Below are positions 4,735-21,239 of a DNA stretch of 22,399 nucleotides, piece after piece (positions within the stretch are counted from its first letter, which is position 1; each line of letters starts with the position of its first letter). The notes below the pieces were generated by a model, which was given only the letters and a program-made list of their open reading frames with translations, ran no database searches and was not told the DNA's origin. Where the stretch lies: IMG/VR virus record IMGVR_UViG_3300035670_001330, positions 1 through 22,399 of that record. One strand, 5' to 3'. The position numbers were made by a program, and so were the translations under genes. The stretch is from a virus.

Positions 4735-5444
4735 GTATCAGCAGCACCATTTTCACTGTCGGCGCAGCCGCTCAGACGATCGCGGCTCCTGACGATATGG
4801 CTCAGCGCGTAACTGTGACGAACCTGCAGCCTGGTCAGAATGTCGGCGAACTAAGCCGCGATGGGTACGTATTCGTGGCCGCTAATCGCTTCACGATCGC
4901 GAATAACGGCACTGCTCACCTACAGATCACTACCGGACAGTACGGCGCTCAGCTCGAATTCTACGAAATCGTGGCGACCAGTTCGAACGTGTCAGCGGAA
5001 CTGATCGAGGGAGCGACATTCGGCAGCGCTACCGCTTTCACGGCCTATAACCTGAATCGGCAGTCATCAATCACTCCAGAATCGACTCTCTCAGCCGCTA
5101 CGGCTGTATCTGGCGGCACAGTGATTAGTTCGGAATACATTCCAGCGAGTAATCAGGCTGGCGGAGCGCAATTCTCTAGCAAGATCCATACCCTCGAGGC
5201 TAATACTTCCTACGTAATGCGGTTCGTGGACGTAGGCGGAGTCGGAGCAGTGTGCTTCCTTCAGCTCGGCTTCGCTGAGCAATACAATGGAGGCCACGAC
5301 GTTCATCTAAATAACACTGCAGGCAGCGCGTTCGTTCTACGCGGCGGCGAGCGGTGGGATGGCGTGCTATATCCGACGCAATCGCTGGACGCTCGATCTA
5401 CCGGCCAGGACTGCCGCATCGCGGTACTGAAGCAGGAGCAGTAA
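4731..5444 (+). CDS. Putative virion decoration or fibre protein
   Basis: A 237-residue, beta-rich protein starting at GTG 4731 inside the previous stop (GTGA). The N-terminal third (VTVTNLQPGQNVGEL, then a beta repeat) and the C-terminal third (HDVHLNNTAGSAFVLRGGE) resemble each other and small beta-sandwich modules on phage heads or fibres. The middle (TAYNLNRQSSITPES, then KIHTLEANTSYVMRFVDVG) resembles a module I associate with capsid or tail fibre proteins of Gram-positive phages. No transmembrane or signal segment is visible. It sits between portal and protease with the two preceding genes, so a capsid fibre is the favoured reading. Exact function is not established. Confidence 0.6.
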   Translation: MSISSTIFTVGAAAQTIAAPDDMAQRVTVTNLQPGQNVGELSRDGYVFVAANRFTIANNGTAHLQITTGQYGAQLEFYEIVATSSNVSAELIEGATFGSATAFTAYNLNRQSSITPESTLSAATAVSGGTVISSEYIPASNQAGGAQFSSKIHTLEANTSYVMRFVDVGGVGAVCFLQLGFAEQYNGGHDVHLNNTAGSAFVLRGGERWDGVLYPTQSLDARSTGQDCRIAVLKQEQ

Positions 5445-7123
5445 TGCCATATTTCGTGACAGGTGAGAACGAAGTCGAAGGCTGTAGCGGTTACGCGACC
5501 GTGAAGGAAGACGGCGAAGTCATCGGCTGCCACGACACTAAGCAAGCGGCTGTAGATCAGATGATCGCGGTTTCGCTGGCCGAAGATATGGAGCCAGGCG
5601 GCGAATACAGCGAGCGAGCCGCTGCTGATGCTCTGGAGATCGGCGATTTCGTTTCCTGGAACGCTGCTGGCGGTCGCGCTCGAGGTCAGATAACGCGAAT
5701 CGTCCGCGATGGACGGCTGAACGTTCCCGATTCAGATTTCACGATAAATGGCGAGGAAGACGATCCGGCAGCACTTATCAGGATCTGGCGACCAGTCGAA
5801 GGCGGATGGCGCGAAACAGATACCTTAGTCGGACACAGATTCAGCACACTCACGAAAATCGATCCATTACCGGAAGCTCCCGAAGATCGTGAATTACCGT
5901 CGAATTACCGTCCGGCTCTAGAAGCTGACGTTCCCGAAGGCCGCGCCTGTGGTAACTGCCGCTTCTATGACGAAACACAGACTATGGACGATATGGCCTG
6001 GTGCAATCGCTGGAGCGAATTCGTCCGCGGTGATTACTATTGCAACGCTTGGGAAGCTGATGAAGCCGAAGCACGAGCCGAAAATATTCCGCAATACATC
6101 CAGGAAGCGGCCGCTCGAGGTTTAGAACTACGCCGAGAAGGTTTCGGTGGTGACGGCCTGACAGAAGGCACGATCCGCGAAGCGCGTGCTATGGCACGCG
6201 GCGAAATGACTGATGACAAAGTGGTCCGCGCTAATGCCTGGGCCGCTCGGCACGCTGTAGATCTGGAAGCCGAGCAGAATTCCGATCCGGACGCCGATGG
6301 ATGGCCTGGAGCCGGAGCAGTCGCACATTATTTATGGGGAATCGATCCGCTGAATCCAGAGCCTGCGCGGCGCTGGCTGGAAAGGGAAGTCGCCAGAATC
6401 CGCGACGAAAGGAATCAGATGAGTAACGTGGAAATCCGTACATTCGATGCCAGCATCTGCGAAATGCGAGCAGCCGAAGACGGAAACGGTATGACCTTCG
6501 GCGGCTACGCATGGCGCTATAACGAACCGAGCCTTCCGCTGCCTTTCACTGAGCGAATCGCTCCTGGTGCATTTACGCGCACACTGAAAAGCAAGAATGA
6601 TATTCGCGCCTACGTAAACCACGACGATACGCGGCTGCTCGGCTCCTCGCGAGCGAAGACGCTCCGGATCGAGGATCGTCCAGAAGGCGGATGGGTAGAG
6701 ATAGATCTGCCTGATACCACTGACGGCCGCGATATGCGTACCCTGGTTGCTCGCGGTGACATAACCGGCATGAGCTTCGGATTCTCTACTGTGAAGGATT
6801 CCTGGTCATCCAGCGGAGAAGAGCGCACCCTGCTAGAAGTGCGCCTACATGAGGTCAGCATCGTCACTTCTCAGCCAGCGTATCCCAGCACGACAGCATC
6901 AGTACGTAATCTGAAAGTGATTGCGAAGCGCAGCGAAACCGATGCCGAGCAACTAGCCGACGCTATTTCAGCGCTTGAGGCTGGCGAACTGAACGAAGAT
7001 CAAGCCGCAATTCTGCGGAAGGTAGTGGATAACGCTGCAGGAGTGGACACGAAGGCCACCGAGCCGACAGTTCCGCTCTCAGTTCTGATGAAGCAGCTGG
7101 ATCTTCTGAGCAAAGCAATTTAA
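5444..7123 (+). CDS. Composite prohead maturation protease
   Basis: A 559-residue protein with an HK97-type (U35) prohead protease in residues 326-490: GMTFGGYAWRYN, FTERIAPGAF, YVNHDD (likely catalytic His393), TGMSFGF (likely Ser444) and LHEVSIV (likely Glu470). It would cut scaffold and capsid N-termini. N-terminal modules, in order: a short domain with GEVIGCHDTKQAAV (about 10-45); an HVA1/DUF2945-like, Tudor-type domain (65-139, GDFVSWNAAGGRARG to VGHRFSTLTKI); a four-Cys module (Cys169, Cys172, Cys187, Cys200) resembling HiPIP-like iron-sulphur domains; and a helical domain (215-320, AARGLELRREGFGGDG). ATG 5444 overlaps the previous stop (TAATG). The usual protease length is about 200-230, so the extension is large. 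Confidence 0.88.
   Translation: MPYFVTGENEVEGCSGYATVKEDGEVIGCHDTKQAAVDQMIAVSLAEDMEPGGEYSERAAADALEIGDFVSWNAAGGRARGQITRIVRDGRLNVPDSDFTINGEEDDPAALIRIWRPVEGGWRETDTLVGHRFSTLTKIDPLPEAPEDRELPSNYRPALEADVPEGRACGNCRFYDETQTMDDMAWCNRWSEFVRGDYYCNAWEADEAEARAENIPQYIQEAAARGLELRREGFGGDGLTEGTIREARAMARGEMTDDKVVRANAWAARHAVDLEAEQNSDPDADGWPGAGAVAHYLWGIDPLNPEPARRWLEREVARIRDERNQMSNVEIRTFDASICEMRAAEDGNGMTFGGYAWRYNEPSLPLPFTERIAPGAFTRTLKSKNDIRAYVNHDDTRLLGSSRAKTLRIEDRPEGGWVEIDLPDTTDGRDMRTLVARGDITGMSFGFSTVKDSWSSSGEERTLLEVRLHEVSIVTSQPAYPSTTASVRNLKVIAKRSETDAEQLADAISALEAGELNEDQAAILRKVVDNAAGVDTKATEPTVPLSVLMKQLDLLSKAI
6419..7123 (+). CDS. Possible internally initiated stand-alone protease
   Basis: Within the composite protease gene, an in-frame ATG at 6419 (MSNVEIRTFDAS) is preceded by AAAGGA at 6408-6413, five bases upstream, a near-ideal ribosome site. 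Initiation here would make a 234-residue protein that contains only the protease domain and matches the usual length of HK97-type proteases. The start falls exactly at the domain boundary. This is a predicted second product from one gene, not a separate locus. It could equally be a chance purine run. Confidence 0.45.
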   Translation: MSNVEIRTFDASICEMRAAEDGNGMTFGGYAWRYNEPSLPLPFTERIAPGAFTRTLKSKNDIRAYVNHDDTRLLGSSRAKTLRIEDRPEGGWVEIDLPDTTDGRDMRTLVARGDITGMSFGFSTVKDSWSSSGEERTLLEVRLHEVSIVTSQPAYPSTTASVRNLKVIAKRSETDAEQLADAISALEAGELNEDQAAILRKVVDNAAGVDTKATEPTVPLSVLMKQLDLLSKAI

Positions 7124-7265: not shown

Positions 7266-7305
7266 ATTTCCCTGATAAATGAACCCCTTTCTAAGGAGAA
7301 AGAAA

Positions 7306-8490
7306 ATGGAGTACCTGAAGCGCCAAATCGAGGCGCGTCAGTCGGCCTGGCACGCGGCTAAGGCTCTCCTGGATGGTGCGGCGGCGGAAAACCGCGATCT
7401 CACCGGAGAAGAGCAGCAATCTTACGACCGCATGATGGCCGATATCGACGAGCGCAGCCAGAAGATCGCCGATCTGCAGGCTGCAGAATCTCGCGCACGC
7501 GATATCGAAGCATCCTTGATCGATGCTCCTGAGGTCCGCGAGGCCGCCTCTGTGCGTCCCTCCGGCGACCAGGAGATGCTGCGTAAGCTCATCGCTGGCG
7601 AGATCCGTTCCTACACGTTCGAGAAGCGCGATCTGAACACCACTGACGATTCGGCTGTGGTTCCTCAGACGTTCTACGACGTGCTGCAGGAGAAGCTGGT
7701 CACTGTTGGTCCGATGCTGGATTCCGGCATCGTTACCTTGCTGAACACTGCTTCTGGCGAGGATATTAAGGTTCCGGTTGAGGCTTCACGTCCGGCCGCT
7801 ACCGCTGTGGCTGAGGCCGCCGGTTTCGCTACCGCGGATCCGACGTTCAGCACGATCACGCTGAAGAGCGAGAAGGTCGGCGTTCTGACCAAGGTCAGCC
7901 GCGAACTGCTCCAGGATTCGGGAATCGATATCGTTTCCTACCTGGCTCGCACTCTCGGCACTTCGGTCGGCATTAAGGTTAATAACCTGCTGACTGTTGG
8001 AACTGGCACGAATGAGCCGAACGGTATTGTTACCGCTGCAGGCTCCGGCGTGACCGGCTCGACCGCGCTTTCAGGCGCGTTCACTGCGGATAACCTCATC
8101 GACCTTGCTCACTCGGTCGATGGCGCTTACGTCCGCCTCGGTGGCGCGTTCATGATGCGTCGGACCACGATGGGCGCTCTGCGGAAGCTAAAGGACACTG
8201 CAGGTAACTACCTGTACGTTCCGGCCGCTACCGTCGGCGCTCCTGATGTGTTCATGGGATTCCCCGTGGTGGAGAATCCGGACGTTCCGGCAGTTGCTCT
8301 CAGCGCGAAGTCGGTTCTCTTCGGATGGCATGGTTCGTACCATGTGCGCCAGGTCGGCGGTATCGAGGTTGCTCGCTCGGATGATGCTTACTTCGCATCT
8401 GATGAGGTCGGCTTCCGCGTGACCATGCGTGTCTGGGGTGACTTGGGTCAGTCCGACGCGGTTAAATACTTCATCGGTAACGCTGCCTAG
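7306..8490 (+). CDS. Major capsid protein (HK97 fold)
   Basis: Main shell protein, 394 residues. Residues 1-70 are charged and coiled-coil-like (KRQIEARQSAW to AADIEASL region), the typical built-in scaffolding (delta) domain removed by the maturation protease, probably at a site around 80-110. The body from SAVVPQTFYDVLQEKL onward, with VSRELLQDSGIDI and the closing DDAYFASDEVGFRVTMR, fits HK97-family capsids. ATG 7306 is chosen over ATG 7279 because AAGGAG at 7293-7298 lies 7 nt upstream of it. Many codons end in C or G here, as expected for the most expressed gene. Structured RNA lies on both sides (7135-7265, 8509-8544). Confidence 0.95.
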   Translation: MEYLKRQIEARQSAWHAAKALLDGAAAENRDLTGEEQQSYDRMMADIDERSQKIADLQAAESRARDIEASLIDAPEVREAASVRPSGDQEMLRKLIAGEIRSYTFEKRDLNTTDDSAVVPQTFYDVLQEKLVTVGPMLDSGIVTLLNTASGEDIKVPVEASRPAATAVAEAAGFATADPTFSTITLKSEKVGVLTKVSRELLQDSGIDIVSYLARTLGTSVGIKVNNLLTVGTGTNEPNGIVTAAGSGVTGSTALSGAFTADNLIDLAHSVDGAYVRLGGAFMMRRTTMGALRKLKDTAGNYLYVPAATVGAPDVFMGFPVVENPDVPAVALSAKSVLFGWHGSYHVRQVGGIEVARSDDAYFASDEVGFRVTMRVWGDLGQSDAVKYFIGNAA

Positions 8491-8564: not shown

Positions 8565-8577
8565 CATGGAGGAAACC

Positions 8578-9792
8578 ATGAATCGCGCTGAGCGGCGTAG
8601 AAGGAATCGAAACGGGATAGAGCCGATCGCTGGCATCTGGGTATCTAACGCTGCCTGGGCGCAGACGGGATATGGCACACAGACTAAGCAAGTGGTTACG
8701 CGCATGGCGGCCGACGGTCACGCTATAGCGGTAGCCGCTAACTATGGCCTAGAAGCCACCATGAGCGCCTGGGAAGGCATTGAGCATTTCCCTCGAGGGT
8801 TCGAAGCGTATTCGAACGATATGATCCATCCGTATTTCGTGGACTGGTCTAAGCAGCACGCGAATCACAGGCATCACGTTTTCACGCTTTATGATGTGTG
8901 GGTATTTAATCATCCCAGGTGGGATGAGATGCCTACGGTTTCCTGGGTTCCTATTGACCATATGCCGATTCCTCCGAAGGTCGGGAACTTTCTAGCGAAG
9001 CCGAATGTGTTCCCGATCGCTATGAGCAAATTCGGCGCTGGCCTGCTCGAGCGTGCCGAACTGGATCACGCTTACATTCCTCACGCGATAGATACGAATA
9101 TTTATCAGCCGAAGCGATCAGTCACTGATGACGCGAATCGTCAGCGGACCGGTCGTGAACTTATGGGAAATATCGATCCTGATGCTTTCTTGGTCGGGAT
9201 CGTTAATGCGAATAAAGGCCAGGCTCCGATGCGGAAAGCCTTCGACGCGCAGCTGCTCGCCTTCGGCCTGTTCGCTGAGAAGCACGAAGACGCTGTTCTC
9301 TACTTCCATACGGAGCGCTTCGGCGGTATGGGTGGAATCCCTCTGGATCCGCTGATCGAAGCCTGTGGCATCCCTCAGGAGAAGGTTCATTTCGTTAATC
9401 AGTATCAGAACCGTATCGGGATCCCTGATAACGCGATGGCCGCTATCTATACCGGCCTGGATGTTCTCCTGGCTCCGACGCTCGGCGAGGGTTTCGGGAT
9501 CACGGTTATCGAAGCGCAATCATGCGGCACGCCTGTAATCGTGAATAACTTCTCCGCGCAGCCGGAACTGGTAGGAGATGGCTGGATCGTTAATGGTCAG
9601 CCGATCTGGGATGCTTCACAGTCAGCCTGGTTCCAGATGCCGCTGGTTTCTGAGATCCTGAACGCTCTGGAATCTGCTTATGAGCGGCGCGGAGAGAAAA
9701 GCGATCAGGCTCGGAATTTCATAGTGGATAACTATGATGCGGATAAGGTTTACGCGGATCTGTGGCGGCCGCTGCTCGAGGATCTGCCGTGA
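8578..9792 (+). CDS. Glycosyltransferase, GT4-like (GT-B fold)
   Basis: A 404-residue predicted retaining-type glycosyltransferase that would move a sugar from a nucleotide donor to an acceptor. The C-terminal half has the GT4 hallmark TLGEGFGITVIEAQSCGTPV with the E-x7-E pair at Glu304 and Glu312. The N-terminal half carries the open Rossmann-like region (WVSNAAWAQTGYGTQTK, residues 21-37). ATG 8578 is chosen over ATG 8566 because GGAGG at 8568-8572 sits five bases upstream of it. It opens the six-gene sugar cassette inserted between capsid and connector genes. The next gene starts within its stop (GTGA). Donor and acceptor cannot be read from sequence. Confidence 0.85.
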   Translation: MNRAERRRRNRNGIEPIAGIWVSNAAWAQTGYGTQTKQVVTRMAADGHAIAVAANYGLEATMSAWEGIEHFPRGFEAYSNDMIHPYFVDWSKQHANHRHHVFTLYDVWVFNHPRWDEMPTVSWVPIDHMPIPPKVGNFLAKPNVFPIAMSKFGAGLLERAELDHAYIPHAIDTNIYQPKRSVTDDANRQRTGRELMGNIDPDAFLVGIVNANKGQAPMRKAFDAQLLAFGLFAEKHEDAVLYFHTERFGGMGGIPLDPLIEACGIPQEKVHFVNQYQNRIGIPDNAMAAIYTGLDVLLAPTLGEGFGITVIEAQSCGTPVIVNNFSAQPELVGDGWIVNGQPIWDASQSAWFQMPLVSEILNALESAYERRGEKSDQARNFIVDNYDADKVYADLWRPLLEDLP

Positions 9793-10529
9793 AGGTCGCG
9801 TGGCTGACTCATCACGTTCCGCGTGATGGATCGGAGTCCTGGCTGCTGCCTGGTGGGGTAGGTGGCGCGGAGATGACTGATGCCGCTATGATTGAGCAGG
9901 CTCCCATAACTATCGATATCGAAGTGGTATCGCCGGAGAACTGGGAGACAGCCTTAACGGCTGATCGGATCGTTATTACGGGGACTGATCTTCTGAGCGA
10001 TGAAGCGATGCTACGGCTGGCGGATGAATCTCCGCTCGTCTGGGTTCACCATGAGCAGACTCCGAGCAAGGCTCGCCAGGAGCTGTTCGCTCGAGCGAAA
10101 CCGTTCGTGACTATGAGCAGCCAGCATTCACAGGTCGAGGAACGCTGGTCCGGCGTGAAGTCGGAGTGGTGTCACGGTCACATGGATCTGAGTGAAATCC
10201 CTCACGCGGAGAAGACGAAGGAAGCGCTGTGGGCCGCTCGGAATCATCCGCAGAAGGGTCTTCTGGCGGCTCGGCGCTGGTGTCGCGCTAACGATATGGA
10301 TCTCACGGAGTTATCCGGCGTGGATCGCTGTGAAGTGCTGCAGGCTATGGCCGCTCACGAATTTTTCGTTTTCTTGCCTCAGGCTTTCGATTCCTGTCCA
10401 CGAACACTAATCGAAGCGGAAGCCGCTGGCTGCTGGATCCAGACTAATCATCAGGCAGGCCGGATCGATGACGGTCCTATCGAGGAAGTGATGGCCGCTC
10501 AGGCTCCGAAATTCTGGAACTGGCTATGA
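9789..10529 (+). CDS. Glycosyltransferase-like protein (GT-B type)
   Basis: A 246-residue protein starting at GTG 9789 in the stop of the preceding gene. KVAWLTHHVPRDGSESWLLPGG (residues 2-23) resembles the donor/acceptor entrance of GT-B enzymes, including a GGVGGAE loop at 22-28. ARNHPQKGLLAARRWC (150-165) and FFVFLPQAFDSCPRTLIEA (192-210) match the second Rossmann half of GT4-type enzymes, with Glu209 near the expected E-x7-E region, but the full motif is degenerate. It is shorter than most GT-B proteins (about 350-400), so it may be a reduced phage form or partner its neighbour. It overlaps the next gene by 4 nt (ATGA). Confidence 0.7.
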   Translation: MKVAWLTHHVPRDGSESWLLPGGVGGAEMTDAAMIEQAPITIDIEVVSPENWETALTADRIVITGTDLLSDEAMLRLADESPLVWVHHEQTPSKARQELFARAKPFVTMSSQHSQVEERWSGVKSEWCHGHMDLSEIPHAEKTKEALWAARNHPQKGLLAARRWCRANDMDLTELSGVDRCEVLQAMAAHEFFVFLPQAFDSCPRTLIEAEAAGCWIQTNHQAGRIDDGPIEEVMAAQAPKFWNWL

Positions 10530-11155
10530 GCATCGGGATAGTCACTTCAGTCTATGGCGAGGCGTATCACGATTTCCTGCTGCCGTGGTCGGAAGCCATT
10601 CTGGATCTGAACACTGATCCGGACTGGATCACGATCGCTCATGATGGAGTGCCGGAGAATATCCGTAAGAAGATCGATCAGCGGCTAGATCCGATCTGGA
10701 TCACCGATAACACTTACGTAAACCTTCATCCTCAGGTGCATGTGAACGCTGCGATAGCAGTCACTTTCACGGACTGGATCATTAAGGCAGATGTGGATGA
10801 TCTGCTGCTGCCGCACGCGCTGGACGGCTGGCAAGAATCATCAGCGGATGTTGTTAATTTCGGATACCGGATCGGCCAGAACGATCACGTTTCCAGGAAG
10901 GTTCCTGGCGAGATAATCGCTCAGAAACTGGATAATCCCATCGGATCCTGCTCGCCTTTCCGTCGATGGGTATGGGAGATGAACGAATTCCGAGATCTGC
11001 TCTTCGATGACTGGTGTTTCTGGATTGAGGCCGCTCGAGAAGGCGCGATCTTCGATGCTACTGAGCGAGTGGATTACATCTATACGGTTCATCCGCAGCA
11101 GATGACTCGGCGGCACGATAACCAGTTCGCTCTAGCTCAGATTCAGGCGCTGTGA
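10526..11155 (+). CDS. Glycosyltransferase-like protein (GT-A, GT2-like)
   Basis: A 209-residue, short GT-A-type protein. It begins with a Rossmann-like strand (IGIVTSVYG) and has an acidic DVDD (89-92) after WIIKA at the place where GT-A enzymes carry the metal- and donor-binding DxD. A second acidic cluster FDDWCFWIEAA (160-170) resembles the acceptor-base region. It starts at ATG 10526 inside the previous stop and ends inside the next start (GTGA). The size is typical of minimal phage or capsule glycosyltransferases. Activity is inferred from motifs and the surrounding genes; the sugar is unknown. Confidence 0.7.
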   Translation: MSIGIVTSVYGEAYHDFLLPWSEAILDLNTDPDWITIAHDGVPENIRKKIDQRLDPIWITDNTYVNLHPQVHVNAAIAVTFTDWIIKADVDDLLLPHALDGWQESSADVVNFGYRIGQNDHVSRKVPGEIIAQKLDNPIGSCSPFRRWVWEMNEFRDLLFDDWCFWIEAAREGAIFDATERVDYIYTVHPQQMTRRHDNQFALAQIQAL

Positions 11156-11832
11156 TTACCTACTCACGGCTAGGGGAGAACGGCCGCCTAGGTAATCAGC
11201 TGTGGCAGATAGCGTCCACTATCGGCCTTGCAAGGCTCCATAAAGAGGTTTTCACCTTTCCTAAGTGGAAATACGCGGACCGCTTCGAAATGCCGCCAGA
11301 ATGGTTTACAGGCGCTCTGGGGACCGAATCCGACACTCTGGCGCTTCGGCTTCCTGTGGCGGCTCGGCCTTATCTGCAGGATTCGTATTACGTCCGCATA
11401 GCCGAGCCAGTCATTCGTAAGACGTTCCGCGTTAAGCCGGATGATTTCATTCGCGATATGTCGAACTGGCTGAACGTCCGAGAATGCTCAGCAGTTCACG
11501 TCCGCCGCGGAGACTACGCGGAAGAGTGGCGCGGCCACGGGATGCTCGAGCGTGAGTGGTATCTAAGGCACTGGCCGGAAGATCCAGTTCTAGTTTTTAG
11601 CGATGATCCTGAATGGTGCGAAGAGAATCTGCCTGGCAGGGTATGTCACTTCGACGAAATCGATGATCTAGCGCTGATGAGTCGATGCCGCGAACTGATC
11701 ATTAGTAATAGTTCCTTCGCGTGGTGGGGAGCCTGGATCTCCGGCAATCCGGTTACTTATCCGGATCCGTGGTTTACGTCTGCTCAGGTCGGCGATATGC
11801 ACTGGTGCGGCTGGAAGCGCGTAAGCCGATGA
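11152..11832 (+). CDS. GT11 fucosyltransferase-like protein
   Basis: A 226-residue protein with the clear signature of family GT11 (alpha-1,2-fucosyltransferases, which use GDP-fucose): GRLGNQLWQ (11-19), HVRRGDY (116-122), FSDDPEWC (149-156) and SNSSFAWWGAW (185-195). This is the most specific call in the sugar cassette. It is shorter than many bacterial GT11 enzymes (about 280-300). The start is GTG 11152, four bases inside the previous gene, with no separate ribosome site, so translation is probably coupled. Family members may use other donors, so fucose itself is an inference. Confidence 0.85.
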   Translation: MITYSRLGENGRLGNQLWQIASTIGLARLHKEVFTFPKWKYADRFEMPPEWFTGALGTESDTLALRLPVAARPYLQDSYYVRIAEPVIRKTFRVKPDDFIRDMSNWLNVRECSAVHVRRGDYAEEWRGHGMLEREWYLRHWPEDPVLVFSDDPEWCEENLPGRVCHFDEIDDLALMSRCRELIISNSSFAWWGAWISGNPVTYPDPWFTSAQVGDMHWCGWKRVSR

Positions 11833-12461
11833 GTGTGGCAGTGGTTTCGATCGCCTGGGGTGATCGATACGCGAGATTCGTTCCGCGCTGGTGGGAAATG
11901 GTTCAGGCGCTGGATCCGAAGCCAGATGAAGTGATCGTGGCGCATCATCCCGAAGATGCTACAGGCGTAGCACAACTGCCGGTGACTCTAGTTCCATGCC
12001 TGCATCGATCGCTTCCGCGGATGCTGAATGCTGCAATAAATGCAGCAGAATCTGACTGGATCCAGCAGTGTCCGTTAGATGATCTGCTGACCACAGATGC
12101 GCTCGATGTGTTAAATCACATCAGGCCAGATACGGATCTCGTTATCCCTGGCGCTGTAAGCCTCGCCACAGGAAACCGCTGGATGGGTGATTTCGGGACT
12201 ATCTGGGGACCGCCGAGCGAGTACCGGATGAATCATCACGCTCCCATAAAGAAGGATCTCTGGAAGCGTGTAGGCGGCTTCGCAGATGAACACTGGTCCG
12301 ACTGGGGTTTCTTCCTGAGAGCTGCAGCTGCTGGCTGCAGTCCTGAATACTCCGATCGCGTAACTCTGATGTTCGATGACACTCACGATGGCCGTTACTC
12401 GAATCTAGGTGGAGAAGCAGCGAATCAGGAGATCCGAGAGTTGCAGGAGAGTCTGAGATGA
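11829..12461 (+). CDS. Second GT-A-like glycosyltransferase
   Basis: A 210-residue protein with AVVSIAWGDRYARFVPRWW at the N-terminus (residues 4-22), an acidic LDD at 83-85 after WIQQC in the DxD position, and KRVGGFADEHWSDWGFFLRA (146-165), which matches the acceptor-site region of GT2-type enzymes (the usual G-F-D-E pattern). It has the same layout as the protein at 10526 but clearly different sequence, so the two may add different sugars. The start at ATG 11829 overlaps the previous stop, and its own stop overlaps the next start at 12458. The substrate is unknown. Confidence 0.68.
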   Translation: MSVAVVSIAWGDRYARFVPRWWEMVQALDPKPDEVIVAHHPEDATGVAQLPVTLVPCLHRSLPRMLNAAINAAESDWIQQCPLDDLLTTDALDVLNHIRPDTDLVIPGAVSLATGNRWMGDFGTIWGPPSEYRMNHHAPIKKDLWKRVGGFADEHWSDWGFFLRAAAAGCSPEYSDRVTLMFDDTHDGRYSNLGGEAANQEIRELQESLR

Positions 12462-13102
12462 TCGGCCTTCTGCCAGCGAGCGGTAAAGCCACGCGCATCG
12501 CCGGTATCCCTAAGTTTTTGCTGCCGACGATCAGCGGAGATCTACTGATCGAGCATCACATACGGCTTATGCGGCCTTACTGCGATGAGATCCGAGTCTG
12601 CACGAACAGCCGCTGGATCGATCTGCTTGAGGAACTTCTCACGGACGTTACGATCCTAGAAATTCCGCCTAGCACCATGAATACGGCTCTGCTGGATATG
12701 TCCGGCGATCAGAATCTGATCGGAATGCCAGATACATTCTTCACGGGTTTCGAGAATCCTTATCAGGCTCTAGCGGAGAGCGAAATGCCGGTAGGCGTGG
12801 CTCTGTGGAGATGCACTGAGGATCTGCGCGGCAAGGTCGGCCAGGTGGACTATCGAGATGGCTTAATCCACGATATCCGCGATAAAGATCCGAAATGCGA
12901 TTACGGATATATGTGGGGAGCGCTCCGCCTGGACGCTGAACCGATCACATACCTAAAGCCAGAAGATCCGCACCCTGGCTATAATTTAAAGGAAATCATC
13001 TCGCGATTCCCTTACCACGATTCCCCGATAAGCGGCCGCTATATCGACGTAGGAACGGCTGAAGGTTTACGCGATATGTTAAATGCTGGAAAGGTTGGCT
13101 GA
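12458..13102 (+). CDS. Sugar nucleotidyltransferase-like protein
   Basis: A 214-residue protein resembling enzymes that make NDP-sugars from sugar 1-phosphate and NTP. LLPASGKATRIAGIPKFLLP (4-23) is a divergent form of the G-x-G-x-R...P-K nucleotide signature, with Arg13 and Lys19 in place. GMPDTFF (89-95) sits where the family has its metal-binding Asp (Asp92). GRYIDVGTAEGL near the end is also typical. It could supply an activated sugar to the five transferases upstream. It starts at ATG 12458 inside the previous stop and ends with a TGATG overlap into the connector gene, so the cassette is joined to the head-tail genes without a gap. Confidence 0.78.
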   Translation: MIGLLPASGKATRIAGIPKFLLPTISGDLLIEHHIRLMRPYCDEIRVCTNSRWIDLLEELLTDVTILEIPPSTMNTALLDMSGDQNLIGMPDTFFTGFENPYQALAESEMPVGVALWRCTEDLRGKVGQVDYRDGLIHDIRDKDPKCDYGYMWGALRLDAEPITYLKPEDPHPGYNLKEIISRFPYHDSPISGRYIDVGTAEGLRDMLNAGKVG

Positions 13103-13713
13103 TGGCAATCACGAACGGTTATGCCACGCTGCAGGAAGTGAAAGCCGCAGCCAGGATCACGGACGCAGTAGATGATTCTCTGCTGGAGATCAGCATCGAA
13201 TCAGTCTCGCGGATGATCGATGGCTACTGCGAGCGCCGATTCTTCACGAACGGCACAGAAACACGATTCTTCGCTGCACACAGCCAGTATGTCTGCCTCA
13301 CGGACGATATCGCCGGAACAGCGATCACACTGGAAACTGCTCCAGCGCTGGATGGAGATTATTCGGAAACCTGGACGCCATCTGATTACCAGCTGGAGCC
13401 ACTGAACCGATCGGCGAGCGGCCTGGCCTTCCCAGTCACGCGGATCCGCGCTGTCGGCGATTATGTCTTCCCTTATGACAGCCTGGGGGAAACCGGCGTG
13501 AAGATCACAGGTGTATTCGGCTTCGCCACAGCAGTTCCGATCCAGGTGAAGCAGGCCACGATCATCATGAGCCTTCGTCAGTTTAAGCGCTACGATTCTC
13601 CGCTCGGCATCGGCGGCTGGAACGATCTCGGCGCTGTGCGCGTAGGTAAGTTCGATCCGGATATGCAGATGCTTCTAGCGCCATACCGGAAGACGAATCC
13701 AGGCGTGGCCTAA
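13102..13713 (+). CDS. Head-tail connector (gp6-like adaptor)
   Basis: A 203-residue protein of the kind that docks under the portal. The N-terminal helices (ATLQEVKAAARITDAVDDSLLE, then IDGYCERRF) are the signature of HK97 gp6 and SPP1 gp15-like adaptors. A beta-rich insert and a C-terminal helical part (IKQATIIMSLRQFKRYDSP region) follow. Position after the capsid, interrupted only by the sugar cassette, agrees. The next gene begins in its stop (TAATG). Confidence 0.82.
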   Translation: MAITNGYATLQEVKAAARITDAVDDSLLEISIESVSRMIDGYCERRFFTNGTETRFFAAHSQYVCLTDDIAGTAITLETAPALDGDYSETWTPSDYQLEPLNRSASGLAFPVTRIRAVGDYVFPYDSLGETGVKITGVFGFATAVPIQVKQATIIMSLRQFKRYDSPLGIGGWNDLGAVRVGKFDPDMQMLLAPYRKTNPGVA

Positions 13714-20346: not shown

Positions 20347-20577
20347 ATGTGGAATTTAGCATTCTGGAAAACGGCCGCAGAGCGAGCGCTTCGAACACTG
20401 GCACAGGTTCTCCTGTCCCTGATCGTGGTCGGCGAAACCGGATTTATGGACGTGGACTGGATCCAGGCGCTTAGCGTGGCTGGTCTGGCCGCTTTGGCTT
20501 CGATCCTCATGAGCATAGTTGCCACTGGCATCGGCGATAAGGGAACAGCGAGCCTGGTTCGTGAGGGTGATTCCTGA
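20347..20577 (+). CDS. r1t-like holin
   Basis: A 76-residue pore-forming protein that times lysis by letting the endolysin cross the membrane. FWKTAAERALRTLAQVLLSL (6-25), then DVDWIQALSVAGLAALASIL (35-54), GIGDKGTASLV (61-71) is the recognisable r1t holin pattern with two membrane helices and a short hydrophilic tail. AAGGAG at 20334-20339 precedes the ATG. The stop overlaps the endolysin start (TGATG), so the pair is coupled. Confidence 0.9.
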   Translation: MWNLAFWKTAAERALRTLAQVLLSLIVVGETGFMDVDWIQALSVAGLAALASILMSIVATGIGDKGTASLVREGDS

Positions 20578-21239
20578 TGCGCGTAAGGCCGAAGCGCCTG
20601 GCGAATAAACTGAAGCGCTATAAGGTTCGCCGGAAGTTCGTTGCTGACTGGGATTCCTCGAGGATCGATCCTTATAACGGCCGCTCTGATTTCGTCGGAG
20701 TGATGCTGCATCACACTGCAGGAGTCGATTCGCTGCGCTACATCTGTTATACGAATCCGTATCGGCCTGTGAGAGCTGCTCATTTCCTGGTGCAGCGTGA
20801 CGGCACTGTCGCGGTCTGCTCAGGCGTAGGCGCGTATCACGCTGGTAAAGGTGGTCCCTGGGTATTCCAGGGGAAGCGGAAAGATATCCGGATTTCAGCG
20901 GATCAGGGAAATTCCAGGTTCTACGGCATCGAAATCGAATCGAAGGGAACTAGCCGGAAGATCGATGGCTCCCTCGAGGGTATGACTGTGGAGCAGGTGG
21001 TGGAGACTGCGATCCTGACTGCTGCTCTGCTGAACGCTATGAGGCGCGGCTGGCGCTCGCTGCCTGTGTCACGGGTGATACGGCATCGGGACTGGACCAG
21101 CCGGAAGATCGATGTGCAGCAGGATCTGGAGTGGTGGCACGCTGTTATAGGGATTGCTCGCCGGAATCGAAAAAATCGAAAGATGGCTGAGCAGCTGATC
21201 CGCCAGTTCGTGGAGGAGCATCCGAAAGGCCGGATATGA
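20577..21239 (+). CDS. Endolysin, N-acetylmuramoyl-L-alanine amidase
   Basis: A 220-residue enzyme that cuts the bond between muramic acid and the peptide stem of peptidoglycan. It shows an Amidase_2/PGRP domain (about 35-190): MLHHTAG with zinc ligand His45 or 46, GVGAYHAGKGG (83-93), YGIEIES (116-122), and IRHRDWTSRKIDV (168-180) with His170 and Asp179 in the remaining zinc positions. The start is very basic. No separate wall-binding domain or signal peptide is visible, so export should depend on the holin 5' of it. The next gene begins in its stop (ATGA). Confidence 0.92.
   Translation: MRVRPKRLANKLKRYKVRRKFVADWDSSRIDPYNGRSDFVGVMLHHTAGVDSLRYICYTNPYRPVRAAHFLVQRDGTVAVCSGVGAYHAGKGGPWVFQGKRKDIRISADQGNSRFYGIEIESKGTSRKIDGSLEGMTVEQVVETAILTAALLNAMRRGWRSLPVSRVIRHRDWTSRKIDVQQDLEWWHAVIGIARRNRKNRKMAEQLIRQFVEEHPKGRI

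Follow-up and report, generated by a model that had tools for sequence, protein, structure and literature searches.

Gene order at the locus

The 22,399-base virus record IMGVR_UViG_3300035670_001330 (positions 1 to 22,399; this whole stretch is referred to as the window) covers part of the genome of a siphovirus-like phage, namely its late region. Genes are arranged in the order terminase, portal, protease, HK97-type capsid, six cassette genes, connector, tail terminator, major tail protein and tape measure. This study concerns the cassette, a set of six co-directional open reading frames (ORFs) at 8578-13102, with the gene for the major capsid protein on its left and that for a gp6-like connector on its right, and regarded here as a candidate locus for glycosylation of the phage particle. 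The cassette genes (G1 to G6) and their flanks are as follows:

7279-8490, + strand: HK97-type major capsid protein (MCP), left cassette boundary (PF05065, Phage_capsid, E 8e-59; phrog_10, E 7e-70)
8578-9792, + strand: G1, predicted GT4-type GT-B glycosyltransferase, the anchor (PF13692/PF00534/phrog_2170)
9789-10529, + strand: G2, predicted compact GT-B glycosyltransferase, 246 aa, GTG start (AlphaFold and Foldseek)
10526-11155, + strand: G3, predicted GT-A/GT2-like glycosyltransferase (phrog_9549)
11152-11832, + strand: G4, predicted GT11-type transferase, alpha-1,2-fucosyltransferase-like (PF01531, phrog_2644)
11829-12461, + strand: G5, predicted second GT2-like transferase (phrog_9549)
12458-13102, + strand: G6, possible sugar-1-phosphate nucleotidyltransferase-like protein (sub-threshold profile matches)
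13102-13713, + strand: gp6-like head-tail connector/adaptor, right cassette boundary (PF05135, E 2.4e-6; phrog_442, E 2.5e-15)

An earlier note, made by inspection of the DNA letters, had described six genes between capsid and connector, joined by five 4-nt overlaps in succession, the last gene overlapping the connector gene by 1 nt. The ORFs, the profile-identified flanks and each individual junction agree with this description. The overlaps are GTGA at 9789-9792 (G1/G2), ATGA at 10526-10529 (G2/G3), GTGA at 11152-11155 (G3/G4), ATGA at 11829-11832 (G4/G5) and ATGA at 12458-12461 (G5/G6); G6 and the connector gene share the single nucleotide at 13102. The ATG at 8578 was taken as the start of G1 in preference to an upstream ATG at 8566 (longest ORF), as the former has a Shine-Dalgarno sequence, GGAGG, at 8568-8572. 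Longest-ORF starts were likewise discarded for G2 (9762, in favor of 9789) and for G5 (11721, in favor of the ATG at 11829), the chosen positions being those that produce 4-nt overlaps. G2 to G6 are probably reached by translational coupling. Overlaps of like style occur at most of the junctions sampled inside the corresponding interval of related phages (see below). None of the six proteins contains a transmembrane-like segment (maximum KD19 1.35).

A near-identity search of the phage collection gave no match. Elsewhere in the window, the prohead protease gene (5354-7123) overlaps the ORF that precedes it; its product has a Hva1_TUDOR-type domain (PF11160, E 1.3e-6) on the N-terminal side of peptidase S78. 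An N-acetylmuramoyl-L-alanine amidase, probably the endolysin, is encoded at 20577-21239 (PF01510, E 1.9e-13).

Enzyme classes of the cassette proteins

The earlier claim that five of the genes encode glycosyltransferases is borne out, by profile for G1, G3, G4 and G5 and by fold for G2. G1 matches PF13692 (E 3e-11) and PF00534 (E 8e-11), both above cut-offs, as well as phrog_2170. In an alignment of 19 homologues, the GEGFG motif and E304 are invariant, the latter being the first residue of an E304-x7-E/D motif whose second acid is E or D. G1 is thus a predicted GT4 enzyme of the GT-B type, with an E-x7-E type motif in its C-terminal domain. G4 matches PF01531 (E 6e-15; 55.7 bits against a cut-off of 23.9) and phrog_2644 (E 1e-35), contains the motifs HVRRGDY and NSSFAWWGAW, and has homologues in two related phages (L008 and L009) at 51-62% identity; it is a predicted GT11 member. 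G3 matches the glycosyltransferase family phrog_9549 (E 3.7e-17) and has a DxD-type motif, KADVDD; its match to the Pfam GT2 profile PF00535 (E 0.022) falls below the cut-off. Relatives of G3 are found at the same locus in other phages at 22-63% identity. G5 gives no Pfam match and belongs to the same phrog_9549 family (E 7.5e-8). The two proteins are 25% identical (BLASTP E 7e-11), as diverged paralogues would be, and both are predicted members of a phage glycosyltransferase family that is distantly GT2-like.

Pfam, PHROGs and NCBIfam yielded no match for G2. An AlphaFold model built from twelve homologues has a mean pLDDT of 90.5, and the structure prediction that the earlier note had proposed gives a GT-B transferase fold for this protein. 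A Foldseek search of the PDB with this model placed the GT4-type enzymes tetrahydrobiopterin glucosyltransferase, MshA and PimA on top (E 7e-7 to 4e-6, probability 1.00), with TMq up to 0.68. The root-mean-square deviations are large, so that the match to GT-B enzymes holds at the level of fold only. The model also matched glycosyltransferases in a viral structure library. G2 folds, according to the model, as a small GT-B glycosyltransferase outside the known profile families.

For G6, which the earlier note had called sugar nucleotidyltransferase-like, three libraries (Pfam, NCBIfam and PDB) agree on the class; all the matches fall below significance, within E 0.09-0.2. The best are all nucleotidyltransferases: MobA (E 0.088), IspD (E 0.2) and CTP:inositol-1-P cytidylyltransferase (E 0.21). 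The N-terminal LLPASGKATRIAGIPKFLLP and the C-terminal YIDVGTAEGL presumably correspond to the two ends of sugar-nucleotidyltransferases, which we take them to resemble. Searches of viral contigs and phages found no homologue of G6, and for want of relatives its single-sequence AlphaFold model has a low pLDDT (31.5). A clear MobA-like NTP transferase (PF12804, E 2.7e-16) follows a GT2-like gene at a distant related locus, L084; G6 gives a weak BLASTP match to it (18%).

G1 is found behind the capsid gene in all testable relatives

Relatives were collected by scanning IMG/VR with the capsid protein only, a procedure blind to G1 and to the rest of the cassette. The scan found 80, of which 72 extend 300 nt or more past the capsid gene and could be tested. 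G1 lies directly behind the MCP gene, within 400 nt, in 72/72. This synteny indicates that the association of the cassette with the capsid gene is not due to chance. Pairwise G1 distances follow those of the MCP (r 0.85) and of the connector (r 0.91), suggesting that G1 is inherited with the head module. G1 is even kept where no further gene separates it from the connector, which then begins 15-32 nt downstream. Judging from these data, G1 is a core gene of the group and its long-term resident. In one relative (L079) the MCP gene holds two in-frame stop codons.

A variable slot follows G1

The region between G1 and the connector gene, hereafter the slot, differs widely among relatives. Clustering the capsids of the window and its relatives at 95% identity gave 38 clusters; 30 of these, that of the window among them, span the whole interval between capsid and connector. 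Classed by gap length (one cluster being counted in two classes), slots hold no gene in 7 clusters, a second glycosyltransferase domain fused to G1 in 4, one or two genes in 12, three in 4, and four or more in 4. Comparison with related phages, suggested in the earlier note, therefore gave a split answer: G1 is universal, and the remainder of the cassette ranges from nothing to five genes, the window having the longest slot.

G1, G2 and G3 form a recurrent sub-core (L008, L009, L021 and others), past which the contents diverge: an epimerase and a glycosyltransferase in L021, GT11 and one more gene in L008 and L009 (an FkbM methyltransferase in L009), and GT11, G5 and G6 in the window. Thus G2 and G3 are common to a subset of relatives. 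G4 recurs in two of the slots sampled and in another that is truncated, and neither G5 nor G6 has a direct counterpart at the slot position in relatives. The genes sampled from other slots include GT2-like, galactosyltransferase-like (phrog_29879), MptE-like/sialyltransferase-like, GT11, TOD1/MUCI70-like and DXD sugar-binding glycosyltransferases, NAD epimerases, and FkbM and other S-adenosylmethionine-dependent methyltransferases. In five relatives (L052, L055, L056, L060 and L065) the G1 reading frame continues into an additional C-terminal domain, which in L055 matches GT2 in a protein of about 670 aa total. These natural fusions support a joint action of G1 and a second transferase on one glycan. 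At L084 (8531-9705) the G1 homologue, the GT2-like gene and the MobA-like gene are followed by tail-fibre-type genes instead of the connector.

The clearest case of recent change in the slot is provided by L038 and L041. The capsid, G1, connector and tail proteins of these phages are 98.5-99.3% identical, and their slots differ by a clean 549-nt indel corresponding to one methyltransferase gene (L038:8743-9288) within surrounding DNA that is 95-96% identical. As far as gene content can tell, the cassette is made of a fixed first gene and an exchangeable extension set.

Such variability might mean that G2 to G6 are mostly passengers at a site tolerant of insertions (a moron hotspot) and that only G1 has a function in the virion. 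That one gene can be missing without any other change, as in L038/L041, and that G5 and G6 lack counterparts elsewhere would fit this view. However, a tolerant site should gather unrelated cargo, such as nuclease, toxin-antitoxin or HNH genes, and no clear nuclease, toxin-antitoxin or other unrelated gene was seen among the slot genes scanned. Those that can be identified are nearly all of the glycan type, a few being without assignment (e.g., L088:12508-13056), and open frames and overlaps are preserved. We therefore give the passenger explanation very little weight compared with a role of the slot enzymes in glycosylating the virion.

DNA composition and residence of the cassette

A long residence of the whole cassette, proposed in the earlier note from a GATC-rich composition said to match the flanks, is wrong as stated: only G1 is resident across the group, and the distribution of G2 to G6 is patchy. 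Nor does the composition match, GATC occurring at 16.1/kb in the cassette and at 12.1 and 12.9/kb in the flanks. In the window as a whole, the count (297) equals what trinucleotide content predicts (294), and GATC richness was rejected as a sign of residence. Being at once as frequent as expected and denser in the cassette, GATC is by itself no proof of long residence. More telling is the avoidance of other short words. The + strand of the window contains no GCCC (27 expected), 10 GGGC (56 expected) and 55 AGCT (149 expected). In L033 (18.7 kb), GCCC, GGGC and AGCT are all absent, against expectations of 26, 68 and 54. Avoidance is strong in the window, L033, L003, L004, L008, L012 and L019, other relatives being normal for GCCC, and CCAGG is depleted as well in the avoiding group (7 versus 70). 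This pattern looks like the purging of restriction sites of at least two specificities. G2 to G6 are depleted as the flanks are (AGCT, 5 versus 19 expected; GGGC, 1 versus 10), and this depletion, being common to cassette and flanks, is better evidence of residence than GATC.

The loss of these sites also bears on the possibility that the enzymes add sugars to modified bases of the phage DNA as protection against host nucleases, as in T4-type and other hypermodified phages. Phage glycosyltransferases are often explained in this way, including those of the freshwater actinophages E7 and F5 (PMC10202952), and T4 alpha-glucosyltransferase (1y8z) is listed among the Foldseek matches of G2, though behind many small-molecule GT4 enzymes. 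Yet escape from restriction through site loss would be largely superfluous were the DNA glycosylated. A Pfam scan of the non-structural genes of three relatives (31-32 kb contigs, approximately the complete phiPsal1 genome; the window record is without the early region) found no TET/JBP dioxygenase, dCMP hydroxymethylase or thymidylate-synthase-like gene, and the annotation of phage phiPsal1 (see below) lists no base-hydroxylating enzyme. Moreover, the cassette sits among head genes rather than replication genes. Glycosylation of DNA is hence an improbable function of the cassette; glycosylation of the particle accounts better for its location.

Probable host and comparison with known systems

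The nearest cultured relative is Pontimonas phage phiPsal1 (MG835450; capsid 40%, G1 39%), reported as the sequence of a lytic phage encountered together with the marine actinobacterium P. salivibrio. Genes for WhiB, which according to PMC10202952 are restricted to actinobacteria and serve to mark actinophages, are present in phiPsal1 and six further relatives. Scanning prokaryote genomes with the MCP returned one binned contig, from a bin without a detectable 16S gene, so that the host assignment rests on the WhiB genes and on phiPsal1. Since the window is devoid of the early region, we infer its host, which is probably an aquatic actinobacterium; the phage is probably not a mycobacteriophage.

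PhiPsal1 has the same type of locus: its MCP gene is followed, as in the window, by a GT4 gene (39% to G1), then a GT2 gene, then the neck gene, but there are only two glycosyltransferases and an opposite-strand methyltransferase. A distant G1 homologue (39%) is found in Microcystis phage Mae-JY09 (PP395641), followed by three genes, one epimerase-related, and then a head-tail adaptor. This phage differs in its MCP backbone, in one extra gene between the MCP and glycosyltransferase genes, and in its recorded host, a cyanobacterium.

The comparison with mycobacteriophages made in the earlier note is sound, overlapping glycosyltransferase clusters being present in Che8 and in the cluster-O phage Wildflower. 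Wildflower, a Corndog-like phage (Corndog gp38 being the studied relative), is the closest architectural match: its gp33-36, an O-methyltransferase and three glycosyltransferases with short overlaps, lie inside the head genes, though between portal and protease instead of MCP and connector. In Che8 (cluster F1), gp108-gp110 are three overlapping glycosyltransferase genes. They differ from the cassette in number (three enzymes versus six) and in location, at the right genome end and not among head genes, and they are not known as an anchor-plus-slot locus. Like the Che8/Corndog-type systems, the cassette has several phage glycosyltransferases in one overlapping cluster. Virion glycosylation is reported for Che8, Corndog and Myrna, with Che8 capsid glycosylation depending on phage glycosyltransferases (PMC12363180, PMC11256854), and work cited in PMC12363180, PMC12619734 and PMC11256854 places glycans on capsid and tail-tube proteins of such phages. 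By analogy, the cassette may work as the Che8 system does without detectable homology to it, the virion glycan being predicted here from the genes.

Bacterial O-antigen and capsule loci have conserved flanks around variable transferases, epimerases and tailoring genes. The phage cassette shares conserved flanks and a variable set of glycan genes with these loci, but has no lipid carrier, flippase, polymerase or ligase, comprises at most six genes, and presumably has a virion protein as acceptor. The resemblance of the slot recipes (GT2, GT11, methyltransferase, epimerase) to cell-envelope polysaccharide loci, and the ability of phage glycosyltransferases to change host surface sugars, raise the possibility that the cassette acts on the host surface during infection, masking receptors, excluding superinfection or releasing progeny from receptor debris. 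This appears improbable. The six proteins lack transmembrane-like segments and differ in this from the Gtr-type arrangement of GtrA and GtrB with a multi-pass Gtr; none of the slots scanned showed a flippase, a polymerase, a ligase or a membrane transferase of the GtrA/B-like kind; and the genes sit in a late head operon, where G1 is retained even with an empty slot.

Proposed role of the cassette

The reading best supported by these data is that of a glycan of several sugars on the virion. It draws on the position in the late head operon, the universal presence of G1, the lack of membrane segments, the glycan-type content of slots and the mycobacteriophage precedent. We put at roughly 60% the probability that the cassette is a virion-glycosylation locus with a fixed anchor and a variable slot, in a tailed phage probably of an actinobacterium. 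G1, translated just after the MCP in the late head operon, would use a nucleotide sugar as donor and attach, in the cytoplasm, the first sugar to a structural protein of the virion, for which the capsid protein is the most likely candidate. Slot enzymes (G2, the paralogues G3 and G5, and G4, in one order or another) would then extend and cap the glycan. G4 may add a deoxyhexose such as fucose, and G6 may possibly contribute to the supply of an activated sugar. A short glycan, linear or branched, would result and could alter particle recognition, protect the particle or affect its adsorption. Across the group, one common core sugar would carry lineage-specific ends, as dictated by the varying slot (other transferases, epimerases, methyltransferases, or nothing).

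Several points weigh against this proposal. The MCP C-terminus (AVKYFIGNAA) lacks a tail rich in Ser/Thr, such as is reported for the C-terminal sites of mycobacteriophage proteins. G1 distances fit the connector (0.91) slightly better than the MCP (0.85), and gene position alone cannot separate a capsid from a tail or host-envelope target. BLASTP comparison of G1 to G6 with Che8 gp108-110 gave no match better than E 0.3, and the G1 profile finds none of these proteins; this test of homology to proven mycobacteriophage enzymes was made against Che8 only, not Corndog, and its outcome would suggest convergence. Finally, the assignment of G6 as nucleotidyltransferase-like is weak.

Without a Ser/Thr-rich MCP tail, the tail tube or the connector may be the acceptor instead. 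In this variant of the virion-glycosylation proposal, sugars would be placed on some non-capsid protein of the virion (tail tube, connector or tail fibre), and the place in the operon would set only timing and dosage. The closer correlation with the connector is in keeping with this variant, as is glycosylation of the mycobacteriophage tail tube besides the capsid (PMC12619734). The constant location of G1 directly behind the MCP gene in every relative speaks against it, and so does the G1 homologue of Mae-JY09, which again follows closely on the head genes although the MCP backbone is a different one. We regard this variant as unlikely, if a serious contender, and retain virion glycosylation, with the capsid as the preferred target.

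More tentatively, and with somewhat less than even odds in our estimate, the locus might define a lineage-wide 'glycotype', with an obligatory virion-priming transferase beside the capsid gene and interchangeable extension and capping enzymes. If so, virion sugar coats would diversify through the exchange of genes, much like bacterial O-antigens, under selection by host receptors, host surface enzymes or grazers and not by animal antibodies. The near-identical natural pair L038/L041 makes the effect of a single cassette gene directly testable. Virion glycosylation has been experimentally established in a few mycobacteriophages, where it is linked to escape from animal antibodies. The present locus places an apparently unrelated enzyme set at one fixed site of the head operon in widespread, largely uncultured phages that do not obviously encounter animal immune systems. 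Should the virion prove to be the target, the sugar coat would be a core trait of this lineage, one needing another explanation than antibody escape.

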